The notes below the pieces were generated by a model. It worked only from the letters and a program-made list of their open reading frames with translations. It made no database searches and had not been told where the DNA came from. 32,081 nucleotides of DNA from a virus: IMG/VR virus record IMGVR_UViG_3300042400_000364, positions 1 to 32,081 of that record; one strand, 5' to 3'. Positions 148 to 17,185 of the stretch are shown here, piece by piece. Within the stretch, counting starts at the first letter, position 1, and the number at the start of each line of letters is the position of its first letter. The position numbers were made by a program, and so were the translations under genes.

Positions 148-620
148 TAGATTTCATGGTTTTAGCGCTTCCTCGATCTGGAACAGCTTGGGTCGCTAAT
201 CTTTTAACGACTGATACATCGCTGTGTATTCACGAAGCGTTTATGGATCACTCCATTGATGATCTGGATACTCGATCTTACGATGGAATGTTAGGAATCG
301 CTGAAACCAGTGCATTTATTAGAGCGGATGAACTTAACCTACACTCTGCTAAAAAGCTAATTATAGACCGTCCTTTTGATGAAATAAATAATTCAATAGT
401 AAAGTTAGGTTTTAAAGCTATGCCATCATATTCGGCTGATTTGATGATTCGACTTAAAGCGTATAGAATAGCTTATAAAGATTTGTTTAATTACGATATT
501 ATGGCTGAAGCGTATTATTATTTACTGCGTAAAGAGCTTAACCAAGAACGGCATAAAATGTTATGCCAAATGAATATAGAAGACACCGTAGCTATTGAAC
601 GTGTCAGAGGGTTAGTATGA
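144..620 (+). CDS. sulfotransferase-like P-loop protein
   Basis: This 158-residue protein begins MIDFMVLALPRSGTAWVANL. The PRSGTxW loop at residues 10-16 matches the 5' phosphosulfate-binding loop of PAPS-dependent sulfotransferases, at the expected N-terminal position after a beta strand. The protein is shorter than cellular sulfotransferases (about 250-300 residues) and resembles compact phage versions; I cannot identify the 3' phosphate-binding site. A TTG six bases upstream (138) is possible, but ATG at 144 overlaps the preceding TGA as ATGA and puts the motif at the usual distance. It overlaps the following oxygenase-like gene by ATGA, so the two are probably translationally coupled. Transfer of sulfate to a virion, cell-surface or small-molecule target is inference; the substrate is unknown. 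Confidence 0.7.
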   Translation: MIDFMVLALPRSGTAWVANLLTTDTSLCIHEAFMDHSIDDLDTRSYDGMLGIAETSAFIRADELNLHSAKKLIIDRPFDEINNSIVKLGFKAMPSYSADLMIRLKAYRIAYKDLFNYDIMAEAYYYLLRKELNQERHKMLCQMNIEDTVAIERVRGLV

Positions 621-1192
621 ACAACATTATGGCTATTGCTAAGGTAGATATTACGCAAATACTGTTACAGTTGAAGCGTAATCCTCAGCTTTGGAATAGA
701 AATCCTATTAGGACTAATACGCCTTCTAGCCCGCATTATGGATTTGAGGATATTCATGTTAGATTCCGTGATCTCGCTGAGTATGATGGTGGAGATTGGA
801 CTAAGTTCAATGGTGAACACCGTTCATGCTGGTATAAAGAAGCAGATAGCCTTCCAGCTATTAAAGACTTAGCCTTTCAGTTAATGGCTACCGTGAAAGG
901 CGAAGAACTAGGTGGAATCTTAATTTCTAAAATCCCTCCAGGGGGATTATGCAAACCCCATACTGATACTACTTGGCACGCCAAGTATTATGACAAATAT
1001 GCCGTACAGTTAGAAAGCCATCCAGATCAAGCGTTCTGTTTTGAAGAAGGAGAGCATATATCTCCACCAGGTGAAGTCTATTGGTTTAATAACCAAGCCG
1101 TTCATTGGGTGCGTAATAATTCTCCGGTTGACCGGATCACATTAATTTTCTGTATTAAATCAGATAGGAGGTTTTCATGCCTTGGGGAATAG
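617..1192 (+). CDS. 2OG-Fe(II) oxygenase / aspartyl beta-hydroxylase-like protein
   Basis: This 191-residue protein has the double-stranded beta-helix dioxygenase signature: His115-Thr-Asp117 in a KPHTDTTWH context, a distal metal-ligand candidate His163 in AVHWVRNNS, and Arg173 in DRITLIF at the place that binds the 2-oxoglutarate carboxylate. The spacing fits the aspartyl/asparaginyl beta-hydroxylase branch common in phages. It starts within the stop of the sulfotransferase-like gene (ATGA), and its 3' end overlaps the next gene by 16 nt. The strong Shine-Dalgarno for that next gene lies inside this coding region. The pairing suggests two tailoring enzymes produced late with virion proteins. 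The substrate (virion protein, host protein or nucleotide) cannot be read from the sequence. Confidence 0.75.
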   Translation: MNNIMAIAKVDITQILLQLKRNPQLWNRNPIRTNTPSSPHYGFEDIHVRFRDLAEYDGGDWTKFNGEHRSCWYKEADSLPAIKDLAFQLMATVKGEELGGILISKIPPGGLCKPHTDTTWHAKYYDKYAVQLESHPDQAFCFEEGEHISPPGEVYWFNNQAVHWVRNNSPVDRITLIFCIKSDRRFSCLGE

Positions 1193-1881
1193 CAGCGGCA
1201 GGAATAGCATCAGGCGCTTTAGGGGCAGCGGGGCAATCTGACGCAGCCGCGGCATCAGCCGCCGTTGCGAGAGAACAACTAGCTTGGACTAAGAAAGTCT
1301 ATGAAAACGCTCAAAAAGATATTGTACCCTACACGCATTTAGGTGAAGTAGGCGCTAAAGGTTATGAAGCTAATCTACCTTATTTAACATCGCAATACGG
1401 TATGGAGGATTATAAAAAGAGTCCTTTATACACACCGATGGTTAGGAACTTAGCTGAACTGCAAGCAACGCCAGGCTATCAATTTCAATTGCAACAAGGC
1501 CTGCAAGGGATTCAACAAGGTGCAGCCGCTAAAGGTGGCTTGCTATCTGGTGCGGCTGGTCAAGCCATGAACAATTACGCGCAAGGTCAAGCAGCTCAAG
1601 GTTATCAATCGGCTTGGGAAAGAGCGCAAAAAGCGTACGGTACAGCCTTCAATCAAGATTTACAGCAAAAAGCACAAATTGGAACGATGTATTTAGAACC
1701 TGCTAAGTTAGGTCAAAACTCTGTATTAGGTTTAGGTAATATCGGGGTAGGCGCGGCTAATGCAATGGCTCCAGCTTATCAAGCTTTAGGCGCTGCAAAT
1801 GCAGCGGGCGCAGCTGCACCTTGGACTGGAGCTGCTAGTGCAGTAGGGTCATTAGGAAGCTTATTTGGTTTAGGAGGCTAA
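1177..1881 (+). CDS. DNA transfer / ejection protein (internal virion protein 1)
   Basis: The protein has 234 residues rich in Ala, Gly and Gln. Its N-terminus is hydrophobic (residues 3-20, Ala/Gly-rich). A central segment contains ATPGYQFQLQQGLQGIQQGAAAKGGLLSG, split here by description: a GYQF box followed by a Gln-rich stretch and AAKGGLLSG, which is characteristic of podovirus DNA-transfer or pilot proteins. The Ala/Gly C-terminus could insert in a membrane. A textbook AGGAGG at 1166-1171 precedes the ATG by 5 nt. It is the first of three consecutive genes of this character, equivalent in position and composition to the P22 ejection proteins gp7, gp20 and gp16, which leave the head with the DNA and form a conduit across the envelope. 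The family-level role is likely; one-to-one orthology is not claimed. Confidence 0.75.
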   Translation: MPWGIAAAGIASGALGAAGQSDAAAASAAVAREQLAWTKKVYENAQKDIVPYTHLGEVGAKGYEANLPYLTSQYGMEDYKKSPLYTPMVRNLAELQATPGYQFQLQQGLQGIQQGAAAKGGLLSGAAGQAMNNYAQGQAAQGYQSAWERAQKAYGTAFNQDLQQKAQIGTMYLEPAKLGQNSVLGLGNIGVGAANAMAPAYQALGAANAAGAAAPWTGAASAVGSLGSLFGLGG

Positions 1882-1882
1882 A

Positions 1883-3379
1883 ATGAGTGATTTAACTGAA
1901 ATTTTAAAAATGCAATGGGAAGCATATCCTAACGCCTTAAAAACCGGACAAGATGCACAAGCTAACGCTATAGCTTTACAAAATGCCCGTAGAGCGCAAC
2001 AAGAGCGTGAAGGGTTAAAAGCTTTATACGCTCAACAAGCTCAACCATCTTTTCAAGCGATTGGAGCTATCAGCCCTGAATACGCACAAACGGCAATGAA
2101 AAACCGGTTGGAGATGCAACAAGCTATGATGGGCATGCGCCATCAACAAGCGCTGACTGGTGAAATTGAAGATAAAATGGATCGAGAAAAAGAAGCTTTA
2201 ATGTCTAAGGCAGCGTTGCCTTTTTTAAACGCTTATGAAGCTAATAAAGGTAAAATTCCAGAAGCTGAAAATCACTATAATTTAATGACCGCGTTAAGTA
2301 AAATTTCAACTCAAGCAGTTGCAGAAGGGTGGGCGCCTAGTCACCATACATCAATCGATCCTAATGCTACATTTGAATCCGTAATATCAAATGCTAATAA
2401 AAGCGGTGTTTTTACAGATAACCAACGATTAAATCAAGAGCGGCTAAAAGCTCGAGGTTCTCAAGAAGGGCTTGTTCAAGGAGGGGTTGCACCTCAACCA
2501 AGCACTTATTACAATTCATATGGACATGACGAAAAAGGAAACGCTTTTGTTATTCCAGGGTCTAGTGGAATGTGGCCTCCAGACGCTAAAAGCCCTGAAA
2601 ATACTCAGCCTCCTGACGCTAACGCTACGCCTGCCGATCCAGCCAATATTAAGAAATTAACTTTTTATGAAAATATGTTGAAGGCTCCTGATGCAACTGC
2701 TGAAGAACAAGCTTTTGCAGAGGCTCAAATTATAAAATTAAGTCCTAAAGAAAATTTTAAAGTACAACCTCAAGTAGTAATTAACACACCTGAACAAATG
2801 GGTGTTAAAAACATTCAGCTAAAAGGTGAAATTGCAGCCGCGGAAAAAGAAGCTGTTTTAACTGCTGAAGAAAAACAAGCGTCTAAATTGTCAATCGACA
2901 ATTATTTCCGAAGTAAGCCCCCTCAACAAGTATTGGGGCTTATTAAAGAATCTCTTGCAGGCGATATTGATGCTGGTGTTGCTAGAATTGGGCAAGTTTT
3001 TGGTATTGCTACTCCTGGGGCAAGTGCGACTGAGGTGTTAAAAGTTGTTACTCAACAACTTGCCATGTCATCCCCCTATCCTCCAGGTTCACAATCTGAT
3101 GCAGAATTTAAAGCTAGATTGCTTTCAATAGGCGATCCTGGCGCAGTTACACCTATTGAATCAAGACTTAGAGCATTAGAAGAAGTTTATCGAAATGTTG
3201 AATCTTTTGTCGTTCAAAAAGGTGATTTCTTATCTGAAAAACAAATTCTTGATGCCATTGCAAATGGATACCTATCTGAATCTAGTGGATTAGAAATGCT
3301 TAATAACCAAATGCTTAATAAAGGCGCTCCAATTTACGCCCCAACGCAAGATAAGAAAACTTCAACTGGGGTAAAGTAA
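1883..3379 (+). CDS. probable internal virion / ejection protein 2
   Basis: This is a 498-residue, Gln/Ala-rich, mostly helical protein. Residues about 20-75 are rich in Gln and charged residues (coiled-coil-like), and a disordered Pro/Asn/Asp-rich linker lies near residues 225-255. No catalytic motif is visible. A GGAGG at 1874-1878 overlaps the end of the previous gene, and only one base separates the two reading frames. Position between two other ejection-type proteins and the composition suggest a second component of the DNA-ejection apparatus. I do not recognise a specific family, so the role rests mainly on context. Confidence 0.65.
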   Translation: MSDLTEILKMQWEAYPNALKTGQDAQANAIALQNARRAQQEREGLKALYAQQAQPSFQAIGAISPEYAQTAMKNRLEMQQAMMGMRHQQALTGEIEDKMDREKEALMSKAALPFLNAYEANKGKIPEAENHYNLMTALSKISTQAVAEGWAPSHHTSIDPNATFESVISNANKSGVFTDNQRLNQERLKARGSQEGLVQGGVAPQPSTYYNSYGHDEKGNAFVIPGSSGMWPPDAKSPENTQPPDANATPADPANIKKLTFYENMLKAPDATAEEQAFAEAQIIKLSPKENFKVQPQVVINTPEQMGVKNIQLKGEIAAAEKEAVLTAEEKQASKLSIDNYFRSKPPQQVLGLIKESLAGDIDAGVARIGQVFGIATPGASATEVLKVVTQQLAMSSPYPPGSQSDAEFKARLLSIGDPGAVTPIESRLRALEEVYRNVESFVVQKGDFLSEKQILDAIANGYLSESSGLEMLNNQMLNKGAPIYAPTQDKKTSTGVK

Positions 3380-13868: not shown

Positions 13869-14501
13869 ATGTCTAATTTAGTAGCGTTTTCTGGTTCTAA
13901 TCTTCCTTCTGTTACTTCACTCTCTACTGCGCTTCGTTCTTTGGAAACTGAAGTGGGTGGAAGCAATGGTTCTGCGATACTTAAAATGGATCGCACAGGT
14001 CATTGGGTGTTTGGTGCAGGAGAATCTGAAGTAGAATCGGACTCTACATGGGCGGTTAATCCGTTCTCTTTTGTTCACGGTTTTATCTGCTGGGGTGAAG
14101 GTGAAGTTTTAGGTGAAAAGATGGTAAGTATTACATCACCATTACCTGAACTTGATGCTGCTCCTGCTGGTGGTAAACGTGGCTGGGAAACTCAAGTCGG
14201 CATGAGCTTAAAATGCTTATCCGGTGAAGATAAAGGCTTGGAAGTTCGTTACTCAACCACTTCAGTTGGCGGTAAACGTTCAGTACAGACTCTTGCAGTT
14301 GCTATTGCAGCGCAAGTAGATGCCGATCAAGATAAACCTGTTCCAGTTATCAACCTGAAGAAAGAATTTTACCAACACAAAGCGTACGGTAAGATTTACA
14401 CTCCTGTGTTTGAAGTTGTTGAATGGGTAGGTTTGGATGGTGAAACTAAGGATGAAGATGGCGTGCCAGAAGAAACAGGCAGACGTAGACGTTCAGTCTA
14501 A
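13869..14501 (+). CDS. phage replication-associated protein, possibly ssDNA-binding
   Basis: This 210-residue protein contains WAVNPFSFVHGFICWGEGEV and a PLPELDAAPAGGKRGWETQV region, with an acidic then Arg-rich tail (EETGRRRRSV). AAGG lies close upstream of its ATG. I recognise the type as one that recurs between Cas4-like nuclease genes and DNA polymerase genes in phages; single-stranded DNA binding is often proposed for it, but no OB-fold signature is evident by eye. Position between nuclease and polymerase supports a replication or recombination role. An intrinsic hairpin immediately follows it. Confidence 0.65.
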   Translation: MSNLVAFSGSNLPSVTSLSTALRSLETEVGGSNGSAILKMDRTGHWVFGAGESEVESDSTWAVNPFSFVHGFICWGEGEVLGEKMVSITSPLPELDAAPAGGKRGWETQVGMSLKCLSGEDKGLEVRYSTTSVGGKRSVQTLAVAIAAQVDADQDKPVPVINLKKEFYQHKAYGKIYTPVFEVVEWVGLDGETKDEDGVPEETGRRRRSV

Positions 14502-14536: not shown

Positions 14537-17185
14537 ATGCTACTTATAGATTTCGAAACAAAGAGCGCCTGTGACTTGAAGAAGCATGGGGTTTACAATT
14601 ACGCGCAAGACAGAAGCACTGAAGTGTTGTGTATGTCTTATGCTTTCGATGATGAAGATGTTCAGACTTGGACACCCGAACAGCCATTTCCTGATCGTGT
14701 CAGAAACTTTAAAGGTCAGATAAGGGCGCATAACGCGGCATTCGAACGCTTAATCTTTTGGTATGTGTTAGGCATTAACTTTAAGCTGGAGCAGTTCTAT
14801 TGCACCGCTACCCAAGCTAGGGCTAATTGCTTGCCTGGAAGTCTTGAAGATATTGGACGGGCGATGTCGGCTAAGATGAAGAAAGATCATCGAGGTAAGC
14901 AGTTAATCCGTCAATGTTGCGTTCCTCCGTATAATACTGCGTTGCTTCCTGAGCTGATTCATTATTGTGAGCAAGACGTTCGGGCTATGCGTGAAGTTAG
15001 TCTGGCACTTCGTCAATTATCTGATGATGAACTGCTGGATTACCATGTGAATGAACGCATTAATGATAAAGGATTATTAGTTGATGTGCCGTTATGTCAT
15101 GCAGCTATTGGTTACGCTACGGCTGAACTGGAGGACATCCAGACGTTAGTGAAAGATATTACAGGTATTGCCTCGGCTAGATCGCCAAAGCTTAAACAGT
15201 GGGTAGCTGACCGCGTTGATCCTGAACTGATGATGGTTGAGGACAAATTATCTTTGAACAAAGCTACTCGGACGGCATTACTGCAAATGGATTTACCCAA
15301 TGAAGTGTTGGACGTTGTTCAGTGTATCGATGACATTAGCGCATCATCGGTGGCTAAGTTTAAGCGCATGGCAGAGCTGGCAGATATTGAAGATGGACGT
15401 GTTCGTGGTGCGTTTGTCTTTAACGGTGGTTCTGCTACTGGGCGTGCTTGCGTTGCTTCAGATACTTTAGTAATGACTGATAAAGGTGAAGTTCCTATAT
15501 CATCTTTGAATGTAGGAGAGAATGTTTTGACTCATATGGGTAGGTTGTGTAAAATATCCCATGTAATTTATAAAGGTCTTGAGGACATGTATCGCGTCCA
15601 AATAGGTAATTCTTGGGTAGATTGCACAAAGAACCATATGATTTTAACTTCTTTAGGATGGACTTATGTCAATCAGCTTATCAGCATTAAACAATCCAGA
15701 AATTCGTGCCGAAGTAACACGGCTTTTTACATCCCCACCATATCCAACTATGGCGCAAGTAGGCGTTCTTACAAAACAAACTCACGCTACAGTTGGAAGA
15801 ATAGTTCGGGAAACAGTGCCTCCAGAAACGTTAAAAATTTTAAAGGTAGCAAATTACTCCAAATCGAAAATGGGCGCAAAGAACCCTATGTTTGGGGTAA
15901 GAACTCAAGTAGAAACTATTTTACGCAACGGTTACCTTTATCTATGGCAAGGCGAAGAAAAGCAATATGTTCAACACCATCGGTTAATATTGATGGATGC
16001 TTTAAACCTAAAAGAATGGCCCGAAAATTGGGAGGTTCATCATATAGATGGAATAAAAACAAACAATTCTTTAGACAATCTAGCAATAGTAACAAAGATT
16101 GGGCATCAGCTACTTCATTCTCAGAAATTAAAGAAATTATATGCTTGGGAAAAAAGGGAGTTTGGGACATCGCAGTTGAAAGAGATGGTAGCTATGTTGC
16201 TCAAGGATTAATCCATCACAATTCTTCATATGGAGTCCAGTTACAGAACATGGCTAGAATCTGCGCTAAAGACCCTGTTGCTGTGCGTTCCGCTATGATG
16301 GCAGGTGATGATCTTAGTCCATTTGGTACGCGCGTCACAAATGTTTTAAAAGGCATGATTAGACCTGCTATTATCCCTGCTAAAGGTAATGTTTTAGTCG
16401 TGGCTGATTGGGCAGGTATTGAAGCAAGATGTAATCCGTGGTTATCTAATCATGTGGCATCGGAAGCAAAGCTGGACATCTTTCGATCGGGTGGCGATGT
16501 TTATGTTGAAAATGCTAAGTCTACATTTAATGTTAAAGAAGTCACTAAAGATCAGCGTTTTATCGGTAAGGTGCAGGAGTTGGCCTTAGGGTACTCGGGT
16601 GGAGCTGGTGCATTTGCATCGATGGCTAGAATTTACGGTCTTGAAATGCCGGAGCATCAGATCAAACGCATGATTAACGGGTGGCGTGTGGCAAACCCCT
16701 GGTGCATCCCATACGGCCAAGAGTTAGAACGTGCTTACATGAGCGCAATGCGTCACAAAGGGCATGAGTTCTCGGCCGGTCGAGTGACTTACCTTTTTGA
16801 TGGTAATCACCTCTGGTATATTTTACCGTCAGGTCGTATACTCTGTTACCCATTCGCTCGGATAGATGATGGCGCAGTTACTTATTGTAAAGCAGCGTTC
16901 AAACCTGCGTCCGATGCTGAGGAATGGCCTCGCGCTAGACTATGGCAAGGTATTGCACAAGAAAACTGCGCTCAAGCAACCGCTAATGATTTACTACGCT
17001 ATTCGCTACGCCAATTAGATAACGTTATCGCACATATCCATGATGAGATCGTTGTGGAGTGTAAAGCAGATGACGCTGAAGAAACAACAAAAAGAATGAT
17101 ATCGGTGATGTGTACTCCTCCAGTTTGGGCTGAAGGAATACCATTAGATGTCGAGATTGCAACTATGGCTAGATACGGAAAATGA
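14537..17185 (+). CDS. family A DNA polymerase with 3'-5' exonuclease, interrupted by an intein
   Basis: The 882-residue precursor encodes a polymerase of 624 residues once the intein is removed. Exonuclease motifs: DFET (Asp5, Glu7), AHNAAFE (64-70) and YCEQD (Tyr143-Asp147). Polymerase motifs: TGR-A...SSYGVQLQN (split by the intein after residue 304), motif A VADWAGIEAR (Asp624, Glu629), a K-x8-YSGG motif B-type helix (VQELALGYSGG) and motif C HIHDE (His835-Asp836-Glu837). The size matches phage replicases of the DNA polymerase I type. It replicates the phage genome together with the primase-helicase encoded directly downstream. The start is fixed by DFET, which sits at the extreme N-terminus in these proteins. 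A hairpin intervenes between its Shine-Dalgarno and ATG. Confidence 0.95.
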   Translation: MLLIDFETKSACDLKKHGVYNYAQDRSTEVLCMSYAFDDEDVQTWTPEQPFPDRVRNFKGQIRAHNAAFERLIFWYVLGINFKLEQFYCTATQARANCLPGSLEDIGRAMSAKMKKDHRGKQLIRQCCVPPYNTALLPELIHYCEQDVRAMREVSLALRQLSDDELLDYHVNERINDKGLLVDVPLCHAAIGYATAELEDIQTLVKDITGIASARSPKLKQWVADRVDPELMMVEDKLSLNKATRTALLQMDLPNEVLDVVQCIDDISASSVAKFKRMAELADIEDGRVRGAFVFNGGSATGRACVASDTLVMTDKGEVPISSLNVGENVLTHMGRLCKISHVIYKGLEDMYRVQIGNSWVDCTKNHMILTSLGWTYVNQLISIKQSRNSCRSNTAFYIPTISNYGASRRSYKTNSRYSWKNSSGNSASRNVKNFKGSKLLQIENGRKEPYVWGKNSSRNYFTQRLPLSMARRRKAICSTPSVNIDGCFKPKRMARKLGGSSYRWNKNKQFFRQSSNSNKDWASATSFSEIKEIICLGKKGVWDIAVERDGSYVAQGLIHHNSSYGVQLQNMARICAKDPVAVRSAMMAGDDLSPFGTRVTNVLKGMIRPAIIPAKGNVLVVADWAGIEARCNPWLSNHVASEAKLDIFRSGGDVYVENAKSTFNVKEVTKDQRFIGKVQELALGYSGGAGAFASMARIYGLEMPEHQIKRMINGWRVANPWCIPYGQELERAYMSAMRHKGHEFSAGRVTYLFDGNHLWYILPSGRILCYPFARIDDGAVTYCKAAFKPASDAEEWPRARLWQGIAQENCAQATANDLLRYSLRQLDNVIAHIHDEIVVECKADDAEETTKRMISVMCTPPVWAEGIPLDVEIATMARYGK
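15655..15658 (+). promoter_or_regulatory. ribosome-binding site of the nested HNH gene
   Basis: AGGA lies seven bases before the ATG at 15666, inside the codons of intein block B (SLGW). It gives the out-of-frame endonuclease its own translation start within the polymerase mRNA. Confidence 0.6.
15666..16211 (+). CDS. HNH homing endonuclease nested out of frame inside the intein
   Basis: This complete 181-residue protein is read in the +1 frame relative to the polymerase/intein. Residues 28-50 look like a helix-turn-helix (TMAQVGVLTKQTHATVGRIV). Residues 65-77 (SKSKMGAKNPMFG) match the NUMOD3 nuclease-associated DNA-binding motif. The HNH core follows: YVQHHRLILM (His104, His105, Arg106), WEVHHIDGIKTNN (His125-His126-x-Asp128-Gly, Asn133-Asn134), LDNLAIVT and distal His147 and His151. 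The order and spacing are those of phage intron/intein HNH homing enzymes. It begins three codons after intein block B and its TAA (16209-16211) lies 11 bases before the intein's end, so it is wholly nested, with its last 30 residues overlapping blocks F and G. It presumably cuts intein-free polymerase genes to drive homing. Confidence 0.9.
   Translation: MSISLSALNNPEIRAEVTRLFTSPPYPTMAQVGVLTKQTHATVGRIVRETVPPETLKILKVANYSKSKMGAKNPMFGVRTQVETILRNGYLYLWQGEEKQYVQHHRLILMDALNLKEWPENWEVHHIDGIKTNNSLDNLAIVTKIGHQLLHSQKLKKLYAWEKREFGTSQLKEMVAMLLKD

Follow-up and report, generated by a model that had tools for sequence, protein, structure and literature searches.

Can a single stretch of phage DNA encode a protein-splicing element in one reading frame and a complete homing endonuclease in another? 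The question is raised by a family A DNA polymerase ORF of 882 aa (14537-17185, + strand) in a virus record, which has no stop anywhere in frame and is interrupted by an insertion of 258 codons. We refer to the whole stretch of DNA analysed, 32,081 nt (32 kb) in length, as the window. The initial annotation had proposed that an HNH enzyme is encoded out of frame inside a mini-intein at this position. In our analysis the best explanation, which we hold with considerable confidence, is that a homing-endonuclease gene lies nested within a mobile mini-intein, in a different, overlapping frame, and is translated by internal initiation. The architecture, fold, two-frame constraint, conservation and empty-site polymorphism described below were all established by computation.

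Two overlapping genes in the polymerase insertion

The features of the locus, with the evidence for each, are as follows.

14537-15448, + strand: N-extein of the family A DNA polymerase, ending in GGSATGRA (ORF; DNA_pol_A; empty alleles in about 40 loci)
15449-15664, + strand: N-terminal splicing region in the polymerase frame (Pfam; alignment; residues 1-85 at pLDDT about 75-90; Foldseek matches to inteins)
15449-15487, + strand: block A, within the N-terminal splicing region
about 15617-15661, + strand: block B with T60..H63, within the N-terminal splicing region
15655-15661, + strand: Shine-Dalgarno-like AGGATGG, inside the Leu-Gly-Trp codons of block B (duplex energy -6.4)
15665-16114, + strand: intein linker in the polymerase frame, predicted disordered and free of stops, shadowing the HNH gene (pLDDT about 30; stop counts; substitutions)
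15666-16211, + strand: HNH homing endonuclease gene (HNH_3, E 3.3e-10; PHROG HNH families; likeness to I-HmuI)
about 15858-15920 and 16014-16103, + strand: NUMOD3 segment and HNH_3 segment, respectively (Pfam)
16115-16222, + strand: C-terminal splicing region, blocks F/G, ending in HHN and dual-coded with the HNH tail to 16211 (alignment; model; slow in both frames)
16223-17185, + strand: C-extein, starting with Ser+1 (ORF; DNA_pol_A; empty alleles)

In the polymerase frame, Pfam finds DNA_pol_A together with weak Hint_2 and Intein_splicing matches in the insertion. The intein (15449-16222) interrupts a polymerase motif between GGSATGRA and SSYGVQLQN, beginning with CVASDTLVMTDKG and closing with GLIHHN before Ser+1. 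All class 1 splicing residues are present (C1, T60..H63 of block B, H257 N258 and S+1) and are invariant across nine aligned intein members. An AlphaFold2 model built on this nine-member alignment shows both halves of the Hint domain with confidence (residues 1-85 and 223-258), the 137 residues between them (86-222) being predicted as disordered. At E<=0.001, Foldseek matches the model to 25 PDB entries, every one an intein or an intein-like (BIL) domain (7cfv, 6qaz, 1mi8 and others), and a sequence profile search concurs. The earlier assignment of blocks A, B, F and G and of the Cys1, His-Asn and Ser+1 residues to the polymerase frame is thus confirmed by ORF, Pfam, alignment and fold, and the spliced length of 624 residues given there agrees with 882 minus 258. 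A group I intron was ruled out as the nature of the insertion by Rfam covariance models, which gave no intron match in the window at E<=5 and group I matches only in intron controls.

The HNH ORF lies in the +1 frame relative to the polymerase and encodes 181 aa from its own ATG to a TAA that sits 11 nt short of the intein end. It matches several PHROG HNH families in addition to HNH_3, with a weak NUMOD3 match (E 0.0049) below that family's cut-off, and the pattern HHID..NN..NLA..GH is invariant in the HNH alignment of relatives. A model of moderate confidence (mean pLDDT 69) resembles I-HmuI in Foldseek (1u3e, probability 0.99, E 0.024); a PDB sequence search with the HNH profile gave no match, and a profile search of genome contigs with the HNH alignment returned nothing, thus no bacterial copies were found. 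The complete HNH enzyme with a NUMOD3-like segment, a Shine-Dalgarno-like site and an ATG of its own is therefore upheld, the NUMOD3 part weakly. Its placement over a linker of about 140 residues holds in that the 137-residue linker is disordered and stop-free, but the gene is not confined to the linker, since its last ~30 codons also cover blocks F/G. Two familiar layouts do not describe this locus: the polymerase is one uninterrupted 882-codon ORF, whereas a split intein has its host gene in two ORFs, and the endonuclease between blocks B and F is not in frame, as it would be in a canonical large intein, the in-frame sequence there being the disordered linker.

Upstream, between a DUF2800 gene and the polymerase, lies a gene without a Pfam match at E<=1 (13869-14501), a homologue of which adjoins the polymerase in the related loci read (L003, L004, L056, L068 and L070; L-numbers label related loci compared with the window).

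Recurrence in other phages and constraint on both frames

Relatives with an intein at the same site carry HNH proteins with 94% (L003/L004), 71-75% (L068, L073, L074, L075, L063) and 62-63% (L069, L070) identity to that of the window. In other family A polymerases an intein is inserted one codon further on (L064/L065, L077/L078, L079, L080, L135/L144), with HNH identities of 34-40% where measured. The initial annotation had called for a search of such relatives for linkers open in one frame and HNH-coding in another, and this is what we found in every same-site and neighbouring-site member, the HNH being in +1 and the intein frame open. The offset recurs in independent contigs with GC contents of 0.38-0.59, as well as in isolated phages.

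The same intein architecture is also found with a second, unrelated-looking HNH family (PHROG 374/3377, GGRGI motif), both in isolated phages (Caulobacter phage RW and three near-identical records, APSE-1 P45/P46, Shewanella SFCi1) and in viral contigs (L033, L056, L112-L114, L118-L121). The hidden polymerase-intein HNH genes of Caulobacter phage RW (L097 2703-3341) and Shewanella phage SFCi1 (L109 2501-3157) are unannotated in GenBank; intein annotation pipelines miss such nucleases. In L118 (2692-5661), L119 and L121 (919-4752) a single polymerase ORF holds a pair of inteins, both of which contain a separate out-of-frame HNH gene, and L115, L116 and L117 have out-of-frame HNH inteins outside the polymerase, the L116 host gene being helicase-like. 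Frame use varies at the KVQELA/CGYSGG site, with the HNH in +2 in L033 (1903-2769) and in the first L121 intein (L121a) and in +1 in L056, L112 and L113; such differing frames at the same polymerase site suggest that the captures were independent. Because the survey started from out-of-frame cases, it is uninformative on the frequency of in-frame HNH inteins. Among candidates for further cases, the methylase inteins of B22, Lana and Pacc40 proved to be ordinary in-frame LAGLIDADG-like insertions, and a Staphylococcus phage HNH annotated as dUTPase an ordinary free-standing ORF.

Two loci showed further peculiarities. An APSE-like polymerase intein in L122 (2932-4077) has disrupted frames and is apparently a decaying copy. 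The L033 polymerase (523-3366) is a mosaic, its N-terminal part diverged and the remainder nearly identical to the window's group, an identity pattern that suggests recombination.

To quantify the openness of the intein frame, we shuffled HNH codons among synonyms and counted intein-frame stops. The window linker has none where 8.3 are expected, a value reached in 0 of 3000 shuffles, while its third frame has 22 stops. For the linker alone in 16 elements, 2.3-8.8 stops are expected per element (84 in sum) and all 16 have none; 11 further elements, compared over the matched HNH span, have none against 76 expected. Together, the 27 elements, a set that includes the near-duplicates window/L003 and L108/L121b, contain 0 intein-frame stops against about 160 expected, and their third frames hold normal stop numbers. 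A chance open frame is ruled out by these shuffles.

Substitutions between close relatives reveal which frame is constrained where. Before the HNH start, window and L003 differ at 2, 3 and 12 sites at codon positions 1, 2 and 3 of the intein frame, and in the linker at 5, 3 and 27 sites of the HNH frame. For L069 and L070 the linker differences are 30, 12 and 58 at the three positions of the HNH frame, and the amino acid identity there is 84% read as HNH vs 54% read as intein. Across the 36 codons of blocks F/G the same pair has only 4 differences, and here the nucleotides are common to the HNH tail LYAWEKREFGTSQLKEML and the intein EIVCLGEKGVWDITVEGD. The codon-position pattern shows that constraint lies on the intein frame up to the HNH start and on the HNH frame from there on, with both frames held over F/G. 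Selection therefore acts on the intein frame at the N-terminal blocks, on the HNH frame over the linker, and on both over F/G. These elements offer clean natural examples of DNA that codes in two frames, where one of the frames is passive (linker) or both are active (blocks F/G). A functional in-frame linker is ruled out by its low identity, the changes at HNH third positions and the disordered model, and an HNH pseudogene by the HNH-frame constraint together with the invariant catalytic residues.

Translation, mobility and alternative explanations

The Shine-Dalgarno-like pairing energy at the window HNH start compares with a mean of -2.6 at 1037 other ATGs. A Shine-Dalgarno-like site is kept in all site-1 relatives, with pairing energies of -5.5 to -7.9, and weak sites are present in L064, L056 and L080. 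Additionally, in most members the HNH frame stays open for only 3-6 codons above its start. The short open stretch upstream and the pairing make internal initiation the likely route by which the HNH is made. Part of the conservation of the site may be protein-driven, as it overlaps Gly-Trp codons that are common in inteins at this position. Programmed +1 frameshifting from the polymerase frame is an unlikely alternative route: nearly all members share the +1 offset, and some overlapping genes are expressed in this way, but the closed frame above the start leaves a very short slip window, Shine-Dalgarno-like sites and ATG/GTG starts are present, and a +2 lineage exists (L033, L121).

Like internal initiation, the other steps, from splicing to cleavage and homing, are inferred. 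Ribosomes in the polymerase frame would make a precursor from which the Hint domain (1-85 plus 223-258, with the disordered linker) excises itself to leave the 624-residue polymerase, and ribosomes starting internally at AGGATGG...ATG would make a separate 181-aa HNH from the same mRNA. It is plausible that splicing and nuclease production are separately controlled. Polymerase genes that lack the intein would be nicked or cut by the HNH at their conserved TGRA/SS stretch, and the whole element would be copied in during repair. Selection would keep the linker stop-free and the F/G codons meaningful in both frames.

The exact intein-less junction GG[SA]ATGRA^SS, an empty site, is present in about 40 related polymerases. 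Compared with 300 flanking extein residues, HNH identity is higher in many pairs (window-L068, 75 vs 58%; L068-L074, 83 vs 60%; another pair, 80 vs 60%), though not in all, the HNHs of L069 and L073 being less similar than their exteins. Empty sites together with HNH identity often above extein identity form the pattern of a homing element.

Free-standing phage HNH enzymes can exclude competing phages, and the HNH might likewise serve a role other than homing, such as excluding competitors by cutting their polymerase gene. Empty-site relatives are common, but the closest annotated HNH relatives are found within group I introns inserted in that same motif of the gene, and the distribution is homing-like. 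We regard such a role as very unlikely to replace homing; exclusion would follow from the same cut, and the two readings overlap.

Scarcely probable is a non-splicing insertion, resembling the ShiLan domain, in which host-frame translation past an out-of-frame HNH is merely tolerated. It has a published precedent in actinophage methylases (PMC11855218), and the hidden HNH of the Pacc40 insertion is 43% identical to that of the Caulobacter RW intein. Against it, the splicing blocks, Cys1, the block-B T..H, His-Asn and Ser/Cys+1 are all present and conserved, the model has a Hint fold, and the polymerase motif could hardly tolerate 258 extra residues. The idea that two assembly or sequencing frameshifts have broken a canonical large intein, which the initial annotation named as its possible refutation, can be dismissed almost outright: an in-frame nuclease is the ordinary layout of endonuclease-bearing inteins (B22, Lana and Pacc40 have in-frame LAGLIDADG-like ones), but diverged copies in independent contigs and GenBank phages replicate the same offset, the HNH ORFs have their own starts and stops, and blocks F/G stay in the polymerase frame with their codons used in both.

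Possible origin and comparison with known systems

Group I introns in phage DNA polymerase genes harbour annotated relatives of the window's HNH family, with identities of up to 44% to the L080 protein. These introns interrupt TGRLSSxxP^N, a point that our own alignment with Pf-WMP3 places 12-15 nt downstream of where the inteins sit. The HNH tree separates intron from intein HNHs cleanly (100/99); it is unrooted and gives no direction. At the homologous site of its DNA polymerase, Microcystis phage Mvi-JY20 (L098) has an HNH-free mini-intein, annotated as a hypothetical protein, which would be the expected type of receptor for a nuclease gene. A nuclease gene already aimed at the polymerase motif may thus have been exchanged between intron and mini-intein. 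Being complete and bringing its own start, such a gene would not need in-frame placement; only the host frame must stay open. On balance, we favour the view that full-length, mini and split inteins are joined by a further distinct and common architecture, in which the endonuclease gene is nested, overlapping and separately translated. Such inteins would have several origins (two HNH families, +1 and +2 frames, several polymerase sites and one helicase-like gene), possibly through exchange of whole nuclease genes among group I introns and mini-inteins lying only a few codons from one another in the same polymerase motif.

In canonical bifunctional inteins such as PI-SceI, the homing endonuclease is an in-frame domain that is spliced out with the intein. 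The element in the window shares with them the splicing blocks, insertion in a conserved motif, an endonuclease inside the intein and empty-site alleles, but its endonuclease is a separate gene in another frame and not part of the spliced-out polypeptide. In contrast to textbook inteins, splicing and nuclease production are genetically separable here, and with this separability the nuclease dose could be set independently, and inteins and introns could trade whole nuclease genes. Split inteins in which a free-standing endonuclease separates the gene halves (fractured genes) were reportedly described by Dassa et al. in 2009. These too have an independent endonuclease gene inside an intein, whereas here host gene and intein form one unbroken ORF that overlaps the nuclease gene.

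The APSE-1 P45 polymerase with the P46 HNH has the same architecture, visible as overlapping CDS annotations, but with another HNH family and another insertion site; our literature search found no paper discussing the P45/P46 overlap. The polymerase group I introns (Pf-WMP3, PhAPEC7, PS3, Dor1) resemble the window element in having a related HNH aimed at the same TGRLSSxxPN motif, as with I-PfoP3I in the Pf-WMP3 intron (PMC3428280). They differ in being spliced as RNA, and Rfam finds group I introns there and none in the intein loci.

The initial annotation knew of no described intein class with this architecture. We likewise found no intein paper describing it, but for an insertion that does not splice, an out-of-frame HNH in a phage gene is already on record: Arsenault, Gosselin and Gogarten (2025) report the ShiLan domain and the Pacc40 insertion, with out-of-frame HNH in actinophage methylases and no intein or intron splicing domain found (PMC11855218), and a 2025 genome announcement mentions an out-of-frame HNH in a methylase (PMC12613952). 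Our literature search returned no matching paper beyond these two; a preprint on the non-canonical architecture of actinophage inteins, cited by Arsenault et al. (PMC11855218), may cover this arrangement in inteins. We therefore regard the two-frame intein architecture as real and little described, with priority uncertain. Much like ShiLan and Pacc40, the elements described here have an HNH out of frame with the host gene, an insertion frame that is open and a patchy distribution, and the Pacc40 HNH is homologous to the second HNH family of our intein set. The difference lies in the splicing domain: none was found in those insertions, whereas here the HNH gene lies within a Hint domain and shares part of its coding sequence with it.
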